DNA of 64,000 nt from Oryzomonas sagensis (lineage in GTDB: Bacteria > Desulfobacterota > Desulfuromonadia > Geobacterales > Pseudopelobacteraceae): positions 219,642 to 283,641 of the forward strand of contig NZ_VZRA01000002.1 of NCBI RefSeq assembly GCF_008802355.1, read 5' to 3'. Position numbers and translations under genes: made by a program. The notes beneath the pieces were generated by a model, which was given only the letters and a program-made list of their open reading frames with translations, was not told where the DNA came from and did not search any database. Positions 34,612 through 43,502 of the stretch are shown here, piece by piece; position 1 is the first letter of the stretch, and every line of letters begins with the position of its first letter.

Positions 34612-34724
34612 GATAGACGATAATGCTAAACCATCCGCGAGGATGGGACAGAAAATCCATGGGTCTCACCGAGACAGCCGGATTGCCGAAATATCTCAGA
34701 ATATTTCCGCGATCCGGTTTTTTT
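34612..34724 (+). promoter_or_regulatory. GEMM-I cyclic-dinucleotide riboswitch with terminator
   Basis: Conserved GEMM-I parts occur in order: GCTAAACC, the P2 stem CCATCC-GCGA-GGATGG (34631-34646, GNRA tetraloop), GGACAGAAAATCC, the P3 stem GTCTC/GAGAC, and AGCCGGATTGCCG. GATA (34612) and TATC (34692) can close P1. CCGGAT...GAAATAT, part of the aptamer, also pairs with ATATTTC...ATCCGG to form a terminator followed by seven T (34718-34724). The two folds exclude each other, so ligand binding should switch the downstream lipoprotein gene ON. Family ligands are c-di-GMP or 3',3'-cGAMP; which applies here is not clear by eye. Confidence 0.88.
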
Positions 34725-36541: not shown

Positions 36542-36800
36542 GCCTTCATGTCGTCGTTATTCGGGAGCCGGGGCCGCGTTTCCCGTGACGCCGCGTAGCC
36601 CGGGCCCCTCCGGAGCCCCACCCTTTCGCGGTGCGTCTGCATTATACGGCAGAGATCCGCATCTGTCATGGAGGAAACGTCCCTGCCCCGTAACGCCGCT
36701 GGCGATGCGGGTTCGTGAGTTTGATAACAAAAAAATAAATTTTGTCTTGTTGAACCCCCCCCCTCCGGTGGTATAGTTATCCGAGTAATTAGTTTTTTCA
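36542..36800. other. Intergenic region upstream of bioA and the second riboswitch
   Basis: No gene seen. The AT-rich segment 36720-36800 should hold the divergent promoters, including the one for the riboswitch transcript. Confidence 0.4.
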
Positions 36801-36931
36801 TATGTTCGTTCTGCCTCGACAGGGCTCACCCCTTCGCGAGAGGGGGACGGAAAGCCACGGATCTCCCGGATGACGGGAAGAGGGCCGAGCTGCCGAAGGA
36901 TACGTCATCTTCGCGGGGCCCGGCATTTTTT
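36801..36931 (+). promoter_or_regulatory. Second GEMM-I-like riboswitch with terminator
   Basis: ACAGGGCTCACC, a 7-bp P2 stem CCCCTTC-GCGA-GAGGGGG (36829-36846) with GNRA loop, GGACGGAAAGCC, a P3 arm (ATCTCCCGG...) and GGGCCGAGCTGCCG follow the GEMM-I order. TATGTTCG (36801) and CGAAGGATA (36894) can form P1. GCCG...GAAG then pairs with CTTC...CGGC ahead of six T (36926-36931). The 5' strand ACAGGGC matches the well-studied V. cholerae c-di-GMP aptamer, unlike the first copy. It should control the small gene at 37044. Confidence 0.8.
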
Positions 36932-37043
36932 ACGCGCACAGACGGCGTCCGGCCGCTTTGAGGGCTTTCCGGCCAGGTAGTGAAACCATGCAATGGGGCA
37001 GGTGGAAAGGCCGGTTGACCGGCAGAGGAGAAGCGAGGAAGCT

Positions 37044-37289
37044 ATGTCTATACCGATTCAGAATTTCAGCGGAAGCGAACCCAATGTGGCAGAATGCAGG
37101 ACCGAGTATCTCGTCGATGAATTTTCCCGGTGTCTCGCCCACAACACCGCCTGCCGGTACGCCGTTCCGGCAGGCACCACCAGCAGCTACTGCATCCATC
37201 CCAACCACACCGCCTTTCAGGACATGCCGGCGTTCGGAGGCCGGCAGGATCATGGGGCGGCGGGACACAACCACTCCATGGCCCACTAG
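37044..37289 (+). CDS. Small Cys/His protein under riboswitch control
   Basis: 81 aa from ATG 37044 with GAGGAA upstream. It contains VAECRTEYLVDEFSRCLAHN, TACRYAVP, SSYCIHPNHTAFQ and a His-rich tail (DHGAAGHNHSMAH). The four Cys and many His suggest a metal site. No signal peptide. Function unknown; its riboswitch leader ties it to cyclic-dinucleotide signalling. Confidence 0.72.
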   Translation: MSIPIQNFSGSEPNVAECRTEYLVDEFSRCLAHNTACRYAVPAGTTSSYCIHPNHTAFQDMPAFGGRQDHGAAGHNHSMAH

Positions 37290-38051: not shown

Positions 38052-40685
38052 ATGCCCGACGTCACCCCCACGACATCCGGTACGACTGCGCCGGGCCGTG
38101 CCTCTTTCTACCGGCTCGTGGCCGGCGTCCTGCTCACCAACCTGTTTGTGATCGGGCTGGTCTGCTTTTCCCTGTACCAAAGCCGCCGGCAGTACGAATC
38201 CCGCGCCGCCATCCAGACCCAGGACCTGGCCCAAGCCCTCAGCCTGACCGTTGCCGGTCTTGTCGACAAGACCGGCATCGCCCTCCTGTCGGTGCAGCGG
38301 GAGCGGGAGCGGCAACTCAGGGACGGCCGCGCCGCCGGCCAGGACCTGAACCACTATATCCTTGCCCAGCGGCTCCTCATACCCGAGTTGGACGGCCTGC
38401 GGATCGCGGACGCCCGGGGTGCGTTCATCTATGGCGACTCCTCCCTCCCGGGCTCCGACACCCTGGTGAACGACCGGGAGTATTTCCGCCGGGCCCGGAA
38501 CGACCCCCGGGCCGGTTTGATCATCTCCGAGCCGCTGTTCGCGCGTTCCGCCGCCAAGTGGGTGATCAACATCGTCCGGCGCATCGACAACCCGGACGGC
38601 AGTTTCGCCGGCGTGGTCGTCGGCGCCATCTCCCTGGATTACCTGATGCGGCTCTTTTCCACGTTCGATATGGGCCGCCAGGGGGTCATCACCCTGCGGG
38701 ACGGGGCGTTGAACGTCATCATCCGCTACCCGGAGCCGCGCAGCATCGGCAGCGCCGTGGTCTCCCGGGAACTGCGGGAGCTGGTGCGGACCGGGCACGT
38801 CGTCGGCATCTACCGGAACAAGGGGAGCATCGACCCGGTGGAGCGCTCTTTTTCCTTTCACAAGGTCTTCGATTATCCACTGTATATGACGGCCGGCCTC
38901 GCAACCGCCGACTACCTGCTCCCCTGGCGGCGCGAAGCCTGGGGGATGACGCTCCTGGTGGCCGTCTTTGCGGCGGGATCGCTCCTGACGGCACGGTTGA
39001 TCCAGCGCAACCGCAGGCGCGAGGGGGAGGCCAAGGCCGAACTGCTCCGGCACCGGGAGCAGATGGAGGAGACGGTGCGGGAGCGGACCGCCCAGTTGGA
39101 AGCGGGCAACGCCCAGCTGGCCGGGGAGATCGTCCTGCGGAAGCAGGCCGAGGCAAATTTGAAGAAGGCCGCGATCATCATGGACCGCATGGCCGACGCC
39201 GTGGCGTGGGTCGCCCCGGACGGCCGCTACCTGTACGTCAACGACGCCGCCTGCCGGATGTACGGCTACAGCCGCGAAGAGATGCTCTCCCTGTCGGTGC
39301 CCGATATCGGTCTGATGGGGTTCGACCGCGAGGCGTGGCGGCGTTTCATGGAAGAGCTGCAGCGCTGCGAATGCCTCCATATGGAGGCCGAGGCCACGGC
39401 CCGGGACGGCCGCCTGTTTTCGGTCGAGATTACGGCCAATTACCTGGAGATAGACGGCCAGGTGTATAACTGCTCCATCCTGCGGGACATCTCGGAGCGG
39501 CGGGCGGGTGAGGCGGAGCGGCAGGCGCTGATGATCCAGTTGAGCCAGTCCCAGAAGATCGAGTCCATCGGCCGCCTGGCCGCGGGGATCGCCCACGACT
39601 TCAACAACCTGCTGACGCCGATCCTGGGCTATGCCGAATTGCTGAAGAACCGCTTGCCGGCCGACAGCCGGGACTTCGAGCAGGTCGACCGGATCATGCA
39701 GGCGGCCGGCAAGGCCAAGGCCCTCACCCAGCAGCTCCTGAGCTTCGGGCGCAAGCAGATCCTGGAGATGAAGACCGTCGATCTGAACAACGTGGTGACG
39801 TCGTTCTACGAGATCCTGCGCCGGACCATCCGGGAGAACATCGCCATCCGGCTGCGCCTCTCGGAGATCGTCTACGCCGTCCGCGCCGACCGCAACCAGG
39901 TGGAACAGATCCTCATGAACCTGGCGATCAACGCCCAGGACGCCATCTTCGACCGGGGCGTCATCACCATCGAGACGGCGCCGGTGACCCTGGACGACGA
40001 ATACGTCCGCCGGCACGAGGGGCTTGCACCGGGGAGGTACCTGATGCTGGGGGTCAGCGACACCGGCGCCGGCATGCCTCGTGAGACCCTCTCCCATGTC
40101 TTCGAGCCGTTCTTCACCACCAAGGATGTGGGCAAGGGGTCGGGTCTGGGGCTGGCCACGGTCTACGGCCTGGTCGAACAGCACAACGGGTATATCCAGG
40201 TGTCGAGCGAGGAGGGGGAGGGCACGTCCTTCAAGATCTACCTGCCGATCGCCACAGGCGCGGTGCCCGAGGAAACGGCGGCCGCGGAGGAGCTCTCGGA
40301 GGTCGACGTGACCGGCAGCACTATCCTGTTGGTGGAGGACAACGACATGGTGCGCACCCTGGTCGGCGATATCCTGGAAGGGTGCGGCTGCCGGCTGATC
40401 GTTGCCGAGGGACCTCGCCAGGCCCTGGAACTGAGCGCGGGGAAAAACGTGGACCTGCTGCTCACCGATGTGGTCATGCCCGACATGAACGGCCCGGAAT
40501 TGTGTGAAAAGATGCGGTCGAGCCACCCGGGCCTTGCGACGCTCTACATGTCGGGATACACCAACGACGCCATCGTCCACCACAGCGTGCTGGACGATGG
40601 CGTCAACTTCATCCAGAAACCGTTTACCGCCGGGGATCTCATGAAAAAGATCGACGCCATCCTGAACGGCCCGGCCGGGCATTAA
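38052..40685 (+). CDS. Hybrid sensor histidine kinase, paralogue A
   Basis: 877 aa. TM1 (20-43), a periplasmic dCACHE-type sensor (45-295), TM2 (300-320), a coiled coil, a PAS domain (370-485), HisKA with H515 ([20 protein letters not shown]), HATPase_c (N box [11 protein letters not shown]1 DTGAGM, G2 [13 protein letters not shown]) and a receiver with D806 ([12 protein letters not shown]). No output domain, so phosphotransfer to another regulator is expected. GGAGG lies 13 nt before the ATG. It forms a tandem pair with paralogue B. Confidence 0.94.
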
Positions 40686-40823
40686 CCGCCGCGCGCATCC
40701 CGCCCACTATTATGTTGACGGTTTTCTATTATAGTTTATAATTAATTGAAAATATTTTAATGATATCGAGCGGATCGGTCGCATCGGCAGGTGGCCGGCG
40801 CCGAGCGGAGGCTGTTCCCCACA

Positions 40824-43502
40824 ATGCCTGAAGCCCCCCCCCCGACATTCAACCGGGTCATATCCACCCGGGTCTTTCTCCCCTGGCTCGCGGCGAGCTG
40901 CCTGCTCCTCAACCTGTTCGTCGCCGGGCTGGCAGGCTATTCCCTCTACCGGAGCCACCGGCAGTACGAGAGCCGCGCCGTCATCCGGACCCAGAACCTG
41001 TCCCAGTCCCTCAACCTGACCATTGCCGGCATTATGGACAAGGCCGGCCTCACCGTCTTTGCGGTGAAAAAGGAGGCCGAGCGGCAGATCAGAAGCGGCG
41101 GCATCGACCGCCCGGCTCTGCGCTCCTACCTCCGCGCCCATAACGAGCGTATCTCCGAGATCCAGGACCTGAGGGTAGCCAACGCCCGGGGCGAGATCGT
41201 CTTTAGCGATCAGGCGCCCCTCGAAAGGCCGGTCAAGATCTCCGATCGCGACTACTTCGTCAGCGCCAGCCGGAATCCCTGGATCGGCCTGATCGTCACC
41301 AAGCCGCTTATGAGCCGGATCACCAACCGGTGGACCGTCAACATCGTCCGGCGCATGGACAACCCGGACGGCAGCTTCGCCGGCATCGCCTACGCCGCCG
41401 TCTCCCTGGATTATTTTGTCCGGCTGTGCGGCTCCTTCGACCTGGGAGCGCACGGCCTCATCGCCCTGCGGGACGCAGACCTGGCCGTCATGGTGCGCTA
41501 TCCCGAACAGGCGGGGGGGGAGGGCAGCACCGGCAGTACCATGGTGCCGCGGGAGTTGCGGGAGCTGGTCCGGGGGGGGCACACCTCCGGCACCTACCGG
41601 ACCCGGGAGGGCCTGGACCCGGTGGAGCGCATCTTCTCCTTCCGCAAGATCGCAAACTACCCCCTCTACGTAACGGCGGGCCTGGCCGTCGACGACTACC
41701 TGGCCCCCTGGCGCACGGAAGCCGCGCTCATGTCGGCCCTGGTGGCCCTCTTTGCCGCCGGATCGCTCGTGACCGCCCGGCTGCTCTACCGTAACCGCGG
41801 GCGCGAGGAGCGGGGGGAGGCCGAACTGCTCCGGCACCGGGAGCAGTTGGAGGAGATGGTCCGGGATCGGACCTCCCTGCTGGAGGCGCGAAACGCCCAA
41901 CTGGGCGAAGAGATCGTCCTGCGCAAGCGGATCGAAGCGGATTTGCAGCGGTCGGCCAGCGTCATGGACCGGATGCCGGATGCCGTCTCCTGGGTCGCCC
42001 CGGACGGCAGGATTCTCTACGTCAACGACGCCGCCTGCCGCCTGAGCGGCTACGAACGCCGGGAGTTGCTTGCCCTGCGGGCGTGGGACCTTTACCGCAA
42101 CGCTACGGCCGAATCATGGCTCCCCCATTGGGAAGAGCTGCGCCGGGAGGGGCACCTGCATTTCGAGACCGCGGCCCAAACCCGGGACGGCCGCCTGGTG
42201 CCGGTGGACGTGTCGGCCAATTATCTGGAAATAGACGGCCAGGAGTACGACTGCGCCATCCTGCGGGACATCTCGGAGCGCCGGGCGGGGGAGGCGGAGC
42301 GGCAGGCGCTGATGGTCCAGTTGAGCCAGTCCCAGAAGATCGAGTCCATCGGCCGTCTGGCCGGGGGGATCGCCCACGACTTCAACAACCTGCTGACGCC
42401 GATCCTGGGCTATGCCGAATTGCTGCAGAACCGCCTGCCGGCCGACAGCCGGGATTTCGAGCGGGTCGACCGGATCATGCAGGCGGCCGACAAGGCCAGG
42501 GTCCTCACCCAGCAGCTCCTGAGCTTCAGCCGCAAACAGTTTTTCGAAATGCGGCCGGTGGACCTGAACAACGTGGTGACGTCGTTCTACGAGATCCTGC
42601 GCCGGACCATCCGGGAGAACATCGCCATCCGGCTGCGCCTCTCGGAGATCGTCTACGCCGTCCGCGCCGACCGCAACCAGGTGGAACAGATCCTCATGAA
42701 CCTGGCGATCAACGCCCAGGACGCCATCCTCGACCGGGGCGTCATCACCATCGAGACGGCGCCGGTGACCCTGGACGACGAATACGTCCGCCAGCACGAG
42801 GGGCTCGCGCCGGGCAGATACCTGATGCTGGGGGTCAGCGACACCGGCGCGGGCATGGCCCGGGAAACCATTGCCCACATCTTCGAGCCGTTCTTCACCA
42901 CCAAGGATGTGGGCAAGGGGTCGGGCCTGGGGCTGGCCACGGTCTACGGCCTGGTCAAACAGCACGGCGGGCATATCGTGGTGTTCAGCGAGGAGGGGGA
43001 GGGGACGACCTTCAAGATCTTCTTCCCCCTGGATGAGGACGCCGTGCCGGTGGAAACCGCAAGCGCCGCGGAGATCTCGGAGGTCAACGTGGCCGGCAGC
43101 ACCATCCTGCTGGTGGAGGACAACGATATGGTGCGCAACCTGGTCCGGGACCTGCTGGACAGTTGCAACTGCCGGCTGATCGTTGCCGAGGGACCTCGCC
43201 AGGCCCTCGCCCTGAGCGCCGGCCGGAAGGTGGACCTGCTGCTCACCGACGTGGTCATGCCCGACATGAACGGGCCGGAGTTGCAGGAAAAGATGCAGAA
43301 AACCCATCCGGGGCTCGCGACCCTCTACATGTCGGGATACACCGACACCGCCATCCTCCGCAACGGCGCGCCGGACCGGGGGATCAACTTCATTCAGAAA
43401 CCGTTCACCACGAGAGAGCTCCTGAAAAAGATCGACTCGATCCTGAACGGGGCCCCGGAGCCGTCGCCCGGCGCGCCGGCGGGGAGGGGGGACATGCGCT
43501 AA
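40824..43502 (+). CDS. Hybrid sensor histidine kinase, paralogue B
   Basis: 892 aa from ATG 40824, matched to paralogue A; an upstream GTG at 40791 is possible. Same domain order: TM, dCACHE, TM, PAS, HisKA (H518), HATPase_c, receiver (D809). The DNA of the kinase core is almost the same as in A, while the sensor and PAS parts diverge. Its stop overlaps the start of the EAL-HDOD gene (TAATG), so the two are translationally coupled. Confidence 0.94.
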   Translation: MPEAPPPTFNRVISTRVFLPWLAASCLLLNLFVAGLAGYSLYRSHRQYESRAVIRTQNLSQSLNLTIAGIMDKAGLTVFAVKKEAERQIRSGGIDRPALRSYLRAHNERISEIQDLRVANARGEIVFSDQAPLERPVKISDRDYFVSASRNPWIGLIVTKPLMSRITNRWTVNIVRRMDNPDGSFAGIAYAAVSLDYFVRLCGSFDLGAHGLIALRDADLAVMVRYPEQAGGEGSTGSTMVPRELRELVRGGHTSGTYRTREGLDPVERIFSFRKIANYPLYVTAGLAVDDYLAPWRTEAALMSALVALFAAGSLVTARLLYRNRGREERGEAELLRHREQLEEMVRDRTSLLEARNAQLGEEIVLRKRIEADLQRSASVMDRMPDAVSWVAPDGRILYVNDAACRLSGYERRELLALRAWDLYRNATAESWLPHWEELRREGHLHFETAAQTRDGRLVPVDVSANYLEIDGQEYDCAILRDISERRAGEAERQALMVQLSQSQKIESIGRLAGGIAHDFNNLLTPILGYAELLQNRLPADSRDFERVDRIMQAADKARVLTQQLLSFSRKQFFEMRPVDLNNVVTSFYEILRRTIRENIAIRLRLSEIVYAVRADRNQVEQILMNLAINAQDAILDRGVITIETAPVTLDDEYVRQHEGLAPGRYLMLGVSDTGAGMARETIAHIFEPFFTTKDVGKGSGLGLATVYGLVKQHGGHIVVFSEEGEGTTFKIFFPLDEDAVPVETASAAEISEVNVAGSTILLVEDNDMVRNLVRDLLDSCNCRLIVAEGPRQALALSAGRKVDLLLTDVVMPDMNGPELQEKMQKTHPGLATLYMSGYTDTAILRNGAPDRGINFIQKPFTTRELLKKIDSILNGAPEPSPGAPAGRGDMR

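Follow-up and report, generated by a model that had tools for sequence, protein, structure and literature searches.

The window, meaning the whole stretch of 64,000 nucleotides (64 kb) of Oryzomonas sagensis DNA that was analysed, was found to contain two Rfam matches at gathering scores, both of them c-di-GMP-I, at 34615–34690 (52.8 bits) and at 36814–36897 (46.2 bits). The second match covered the complete RF01051 model (1–87 of 87) on the forward strand, with an E-value of 7.4e-6 for a search space of the whole 64 kb, and was followed by a hairpin with a T-tract and an open reading frame (ORF) for an 81-aa protein (Table 1). An earlier note on this DNA had read the locus as a second GEMM-I-like riboswitch with an expression platform before an undescribed small Cys/His protein, and had named an Rfam search as a check. 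The search upheld the class, as the RF01051 score was above the cut-off of 35; a score below the cut-off was obtained for c-di-GMP-I-GGC (RF03167), the top match in a permissive scan of 36600–37100. The protein had no Pfam or NCBIfam match at E-values up to 1. The aptamer is indeed the second within the window, but the genome holds at least 20 of this kind. The sequence at 36814–36897 is a genuine GEMM-I aptamer, and the switch is ordinary in kind.

Table 1. Features of the leader and of the small gene, in positions of the window.
Feature	Position	Strand	Details or basis
Predicted sigma-70-type promoter, TTGAAC-16-TATAGT	36750..36777	+	9/12 matches
c-di-GMP-I (GEMM-I) aptamer	36814..36897	+	RF01051 46.2 bits (cut-off 35); RF03167 53.0 bits (cut-off 59)
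P1, 5′ strand	36814..36818	+	pairs 36814-36899, 36815-36898, 36817-36895, 36818-36894
J1/2 ligand-pocket strand AGGGCUCAC	36821..36829	+	columns 8–16 of alignment A4
P2 hairpin, 7 bp, GCGA tetraloop	36829..36846	+	folding and pairing comparison of leaders
P3 arm	36853..36891	+	RF01051 match and covariation
Intrinsic terminator hairpin; 5′ arm 36884–36899 holds P3 (part) and P1 3′ strands	36884..36924	+	
P1, 3′ strand, doubling as part of terminator 5′ arm	36894..36899	+	pairing comparison of leaders
U6 tract of terminator	36926..36931	+	sequence
Putative ribosome-binding site (GAGGA)	37035..37039	+	by eye
81-aa protein, unassigned Cys4 family (C18, C30, C37, C50; H52, H55)	37044..37289	+	

Among 76 genomes of the taxonomic family, the small gene was found in 25, counting that of the window (G000). 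Loci were scanned from 32 homologue-carrying genomes, although the profile search did not recover the homologue in one of them (G030); 16 of the 46 small-gene matches had no locus. A GEMM-I aptamer directly upstream of the gene was found in four of these 32 genomes, namely G000, G049 (apparently O. japonica Red96), G051 and G052, all from one genus and making up four of its five members that carry the gene. In the fifth, G050 (83% complete), no aptamer match was detected upstream, either by the locus scan or by reading of the upstream region, and in another genome of the genus, G053 (88% complete), the small gene was not found. At one locus (L035) an aptamer was located 1.4 kb upstream, with another ORF in between. 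In the window, as in G049 and G051, the small gene is flanked by genes for BioA and a bacteriohemerythrin, which were not found beside it in G052. Since G052 keeps the pair in another neighbourhood, the switch goes with the gene. Three GEMM-I aptamers on one strand were also seen within 4.5 kb of G052 (C1:2831367–2835771), preceding, as judged by eye, a chemoreceptor-like ORF, a CxxC protein and the small Cys4 protein.

The four orthologous leaders have the promoter hexamers, the aptamer, the terminator and the start codon in common: TTGAAC or TTGAAT with TATA-N-T was present in 4/4, and the start codon of the 81-aa ORF was conserved in 4/4. Two promoter-like sites were found on both strands of a 501-base region, against 0.3 expected in shuffles. 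A run of nine C (36755–36763) takes in the final base of the −35 hexamer and then occupies the promoter spacer; it has equal length in O. japonica and is absent in G051 and G052, and slippage in it could alter the promoter spacing. Within the aptamer, the P2 strands are 36829–36835 and 36840–36846, so that the 7-bp P2 with GCGA loop described previously was recovered; in the three orthologues P2 has 6 bp with A-G at the seventh position. Both GGACGGAAAGCC (36845–36856) and GAGCTGCCG (36887–36895) were located where they had been reported. All four P1 pairs were kept in all four leaders. In a free fold of 36800–36900, 36808–36813 paired with 36820–36825 in place of P1, and a fold of 36814–36898 gave three P1-like pairs only.

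The adjacent hairpin, which had been suggested as the expression platform on account of its six T, was found to consist of 14 pairs (36884–36899 with 36908–36924) before the T6 tract. The window and two orthologues retain all 14; G052 retains 12 and has one two-sided change (36890-36918, CG to UA). This terminator was missed by a simple consensus terminator scan of the region, which found none. Its 5′ arm includes all four 3′ partners of P1 (36894, 36895, 36898 and 36899), and such sharing of strands between terminator and aptamer is a feature of transcriptional ON-switches. Because the terminator takes up the P1 3′ strand and part of that of P3, the aptamer and terminator states are mutually exclusive, and ligand binding should therefore spare the gene from termination. 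In the cGAMP ON-switch of pilM, terminator and aptamer are likewise mutually exclusive according to the available text of PMC9262584. The leader in the window has the ON-switch layout described for pilM, and the same direction of switching would be expected in the cell.

We consider it rather probable that the leader is a transcriptional riboswitch of the GEMM-I class acting as an ON-switch before the 81-aa gene, with c-di-GMP as the most likely ligand. Transcription would start a few bases past the −10 hexamer, so that the aptamer would be made first. Bound ligand, most likely c-di-GMP, would stabilise P1 and P3 and thereby occupy their 3′ strands; the terminator would then not form and the 81-aa gene would be transcribed. 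With no ligand present, the terminator would fold and transcription would end at the U6 tract.

The ligand pocket of the window aptamer was unusual compared to that of its relatives. We take G36824 and G36822 to be the equivalents of G20 and A18 in the Vc2 aptamer of Vibrio cholerae, and columns 11, 38 and 123 of alignment A4 to be those of Vc2 G20, A47 and C92. This column mapping was aided by the available part of PMC9262584. Core columns were inspected in 83 other aptamers (86 distinct aptamers less the window's and two partial rows), and three unusual J1/2 bases were identified, at 36822, 36827 and 36829. Column 9 (36822) is G in the window (A in 69/83, G in 3/83), column 14 is C (A in 64/83, C in 6/83) and column 16 is C (A in 82/83). 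Besides, column 118 is A (G in 75/83). The window aptamer thus does not show the usual A at the Vc2 A18 equivalent or the A-rich J1/2, although the A at column 9 is typical rather than strictly defining. This adenine presumably corresponds to A12 of the cGAMP aptamer. In the simulated cGAMP aptamer, A12 makes two hydrogen bonds with 99.8% and 96.5% occupancy, as given in the part of PMC6274999 that was available.

The same changes account for a likeness that did not stand. The earlier note had compared ACAGGGC in the 5′ strand with the V. cholerae c-di-GMP aptamer; in the covariance alignment, however, the Vc2 A18 position is occupied by G rather than A, and at the same place AUAAGGCC, CCAAGGCC and AUAAAGCC are found in the orthologues. 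Since the orthologues differ there, the resemblance is a by-product of changes private to the strain. Alignment of ACAGGGC in the Vc2 register was tried and rejected, as it left a G-G mismatch in P1b, and the covariance alignment was retained.

The orthologous aptamers scored 65.3 (G049), 64.3 (G051) and 59.4 bits (G052), which places the window aptamer 13–19 bits lower. With three conserved J1/2 adenines missing and a score reduced to this extent, ligand binding in the window strain is uncertain, and its weakening is a real possibility as judged from the sequence; the pocket would be either weakening or tolerant of J1/2 changes. A switch in decay, in which the aptamer no longer binds its ligand but terminator and gene remain and the gene is expressed by basal read-through, would agree with the 19-bit distance to the nearest orthologue and with the identity of the aptamer to that of the nearest species, 72/84 (86%), compared to 96–100% in 14 other syntenic aptamer pairs (5 of the genome's 20 aptamers were without a clear syntenic partner and left out). 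It would also agree with the crowding of changes in the 5′ part (9/32 sites against 3/52 in the remainder; Fisher p 0.008, for a split set after the data had been seen). However, 9/32 did not differ significantly from the synonymous divergence of the gene (6/52; p 0.078), pairing is still possible for P1, P1b, P2 and the terminator, the Vc2-20, -47 and -92 equivalents are intact, and 14 of the 83 other aptamers also have a base other than A at column 9. We therefore regard a disabled switch as unlikely, though deserving serious consideration. The two close species represent a natural experiment, as their aptamers differ at three pocket adenines and have promoter, terminator and gene in common, and the pair could reveal to what extent a GEMM-I pocket withstands J1/2 changes.

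As for the ligand of the functional ON-switch that we favour, the window has G, A and C at the Vc2 G20, A47 and C92 equivalents. The A at Vc2-47 was shared by 83/83 other aptamers and the C at Vc2-92 by 79/83, and the Vc2-20 column showed G, not A, in the window and the three orthologous leaders. We take A at the Vc2-20 column to be the cGAMP-type base. Ligand contacts of A14 in the cGAMP aptamer, described in the available text of PMC6274999, are consistent with this, and the part of PMC9262584 at hand presents the G at position 20 as a selectivity factor rather than a hard filter. The G at the G20 equivalent makes c-di-GMP the likelier ligand of the window aptamer on sequence grounds, and so does the occurrence of G-type switches before chemotaxis-like genes elsewhere in the genome.

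At least 20 RF01051 matches were detected in the genome when 150 of 278 first-look candidates were scored, all 20 being over the cut-off. With P2 as anchor, the Vc2 G20 equivalent was read as A in 15 of the 20 and as G in 5, the window aptamer being of the G-type. By eye, G-type aptamers were seen before CheW- and HDOD-like ORFs (L001), before CheY- and CheX-like ORFs (L004) and before a secreted protein (L002); others precede an Fn3 lipoprotein (L003; Pfam fn3) and the small Cys4 protein (L006). An A-type pair (L010 and L013) precedes a transpeptidase-like lipoprotein, and many A-type aptamers precede proteins with signal-peptide-like starts, again as judged by eye. The A-type aptamers presumably fit the cGAMP switches of Geobacter. 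In the available part of PMC6456294, cytochromes, genes for pili and lipoprotein transpeptidases are given as targets of such GEMM-Ib switches. The other aptamer of the window (34615–34690), before an Fn3 lipoprotein, showed a cGAMP-type scaffold (AUAAUGCUAAA) yet G at the Vc2-20 column, and is a candidate dual-specificity switch.

A cGAMP (GEMM-Ib) switch of the type that controls metal-reduction genes in Geobacter is accordingly the alternative to be weighed for the ligand. It would suit the predominance of A-type aptamers in this genome and the presence of a GacA-like Hypr GGDEF protein (L128, C3:469734–470201), with an N-terminal receiver and a serine in GHLVGS together with RYGGDEF. The best solved-structure match of this protein was 6d9m (231 bits against 152 for the next), which we take to be the Hypr structure of PMC6456294. 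As the diagnostic segment went unread in 7 of the 24 loci covered by the GGDEF motif scan, this one Hypr enzyme is a lower bound. The L128 gene adjoins a histidyl-tRNA-synthetase-like ORF. One Geobacter GEMM-I switch was moreover reported to respond to both ligands in the available text of PMC6456294. Against this, the Vc2-20 column is G in all four orthologous leaders, and we consider a cGAMP switch at this locus improbable.

Membership of the variant class c-di-GMP-I-GGC is far less probable still. Its model scored 68–71.8 bits on the orthologues, over the cut-off of 59, but stayed below this cut-off on the window aptamer, and its consensus has G where the window and 83/83 other aptamers have A. 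This signature G (Vc2 A47 equivalent), like the meaning of "GGC", was read from the model consensus, and membership was rejected because the signature column is A, not G. RF03167 matches at E ≤ 0.01 were present in 71 of the 76 genomes of the taxonomic family and exceeded the cut-off in 34. Judging from these sequences, the model evidently also picks up GEMM-I RNAs of the ordinary kind in the family. As it passes its cut-off on aptamers without the signature G, c-di-GMP-I-GGC annotations in this bacterial family need care.

A covariance model was built from 18 aptamers (15 of the genome's 20 and the three orthologues), and the alignment made with it contained 97 matches from 80 loci of the taxonomic family and 86 distinct aptamer rows, the loci having been picked for a high score or for belonging to the genus. 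Over 18 pairs, 92.0% of the cells in the 86 rows were paired, compared to a shuffled mean of 72.4%, and none of 500 shuffles was as high; two-sided changes were observed in 14 of the 18 pairs. All these figures lean towards the model, since the structure guided the alignment, the loci were picked as stated and rows from orthologues do not count as independent. Chance hairpins without a regulatory role, for which the absence of a full P1 from free folds of the leader might be quoted, can be dismissed in view of the covariance match with its E-value in the window, this covariation and the same element in four leaders.

The 81-aa ORF showed a pN/pS of 0.14 compared to its nearest orthologue (3/191 against 6/52 sites), which indicates purifying selection. 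The four cysteines were invariant in all 30 non-redundant ORFs of a set that included the window's own (phmmer E ≤ 0.1, after removal of duplicates and of ORFs with an open end), and histidines 2 and 5 residues past the last cysteine were found in 27/30 and 23/30, respectively. By a profile search in which the best 20 or fewer candidates per genome were scored, the family was detected in 59 or more of the 277 genomes that represent the class, and each of the 59 belongs to the order of the window. Two relatives carry tandem small Cys4 genes (L022, 2607–3288; L023, 1941–2793). The predicted structure, obtained from six sequences (the window's, that of L021 and two each from L022 and L023), had a mean pLDDT of 54.2 and a pTM of 0.28, too weak for a fold search. 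A solved-structure profile search returned four rows with E-values of 0.85–0.87, all of them aldolase, which were taken as chance. No paper joining Oryzomonas and a riboswitch was found in a search that had supplements and most subscription papers outside its scope, and the small Cys4 protein was not seen in the available parts of the literature on Geobacter, riboswitches, GEMM and chemotaxis, among the matches listed. The four cysteines and accessory histidines of the product probably coordinate a metal ion, zinc or iron.

Genes next to members of the family were surveyed as 50 ORFs from 25 loci, from which 10 were picked by eye as real-looking genes and eight (from six loci) were scanned. 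A Pfam match was obtained for 7 of these 8, in a selection biased towards recognisable genes and having no background rate. L042 is flanked by CheW and a chemoreceptor and L044 by a receiver-HD protein and CheB, both loci being distant members; L034 comes after a PilZ protein, L037 before a receiver, and L027 has a DUF4388 protein nearby. No Pfam match was obtained for the neighbour of L036, and the neighbours of L053 and L165 were receiver-like by eye. In the window itself, the locus is followed by a tandem pair of large genes (38052–43502), much alike and of sensor kinase-receiver-like type, and then by an HDOD/EAL-like ORF, as judged by eye. Control by a riboswitch makes the small protein a member of a regulon and not thereby an effector; that it is a new effector of cyclic-dinucleotide signalling, as the earlier note had proposed, is thus a hypothesis based on association, namely on the chemotaxis or second-messenger genes next to some distant family members and on the chemotaxis-like genes that follow other G-type switches. 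We infer metal binding and a signalling role for the Cys4 family, and the 81-aa product probably plays an accessory part in signalling or redox adaptation when cells live on surfaces or are motile. A more specific account, in which it is a new metal-binding chemotaxis or second-messenger accessory under a c-di-GMP switch of Oryzomonas whose pocket, in the window strain, is being retuned in affinity or ligand, is doubtful. What is new is the switch target, from an unassigned four-cysteine family, and the unusual pocket in the window strain. A protein family without domain assignment hereby joins a cyclic-dinucleotide riboswitch regulon, which provides a handle on its role.

Compared to c-di-GMP-I (RF01051; Vc2 of V. 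cholerae), the window aptamer showed the same P1/P2/P3 order, GNRA loop in P2, P1b pairs and G20/A47/C92 equivalents, but differed by G at the A18 equivalent, C at J1/2 columns 14 and 16 and a 7-bp P2. With c-di-GMP-I-GGC (RF03167) it has in common the high covariance score of its orthologues, whereas its own score is below the cut-off and the base in its signature column is A rather than G. The cGAMP switches of Geobacter (pilM/Gm0970 and Gs1761), as far as the available text of PMC9262584 describes them, are similar in fold, occur in related bacteria and have the ON-layout with an exclusive terminator; the window aptamer is distinguished from them by G in place of A at the Vc2-20 column.
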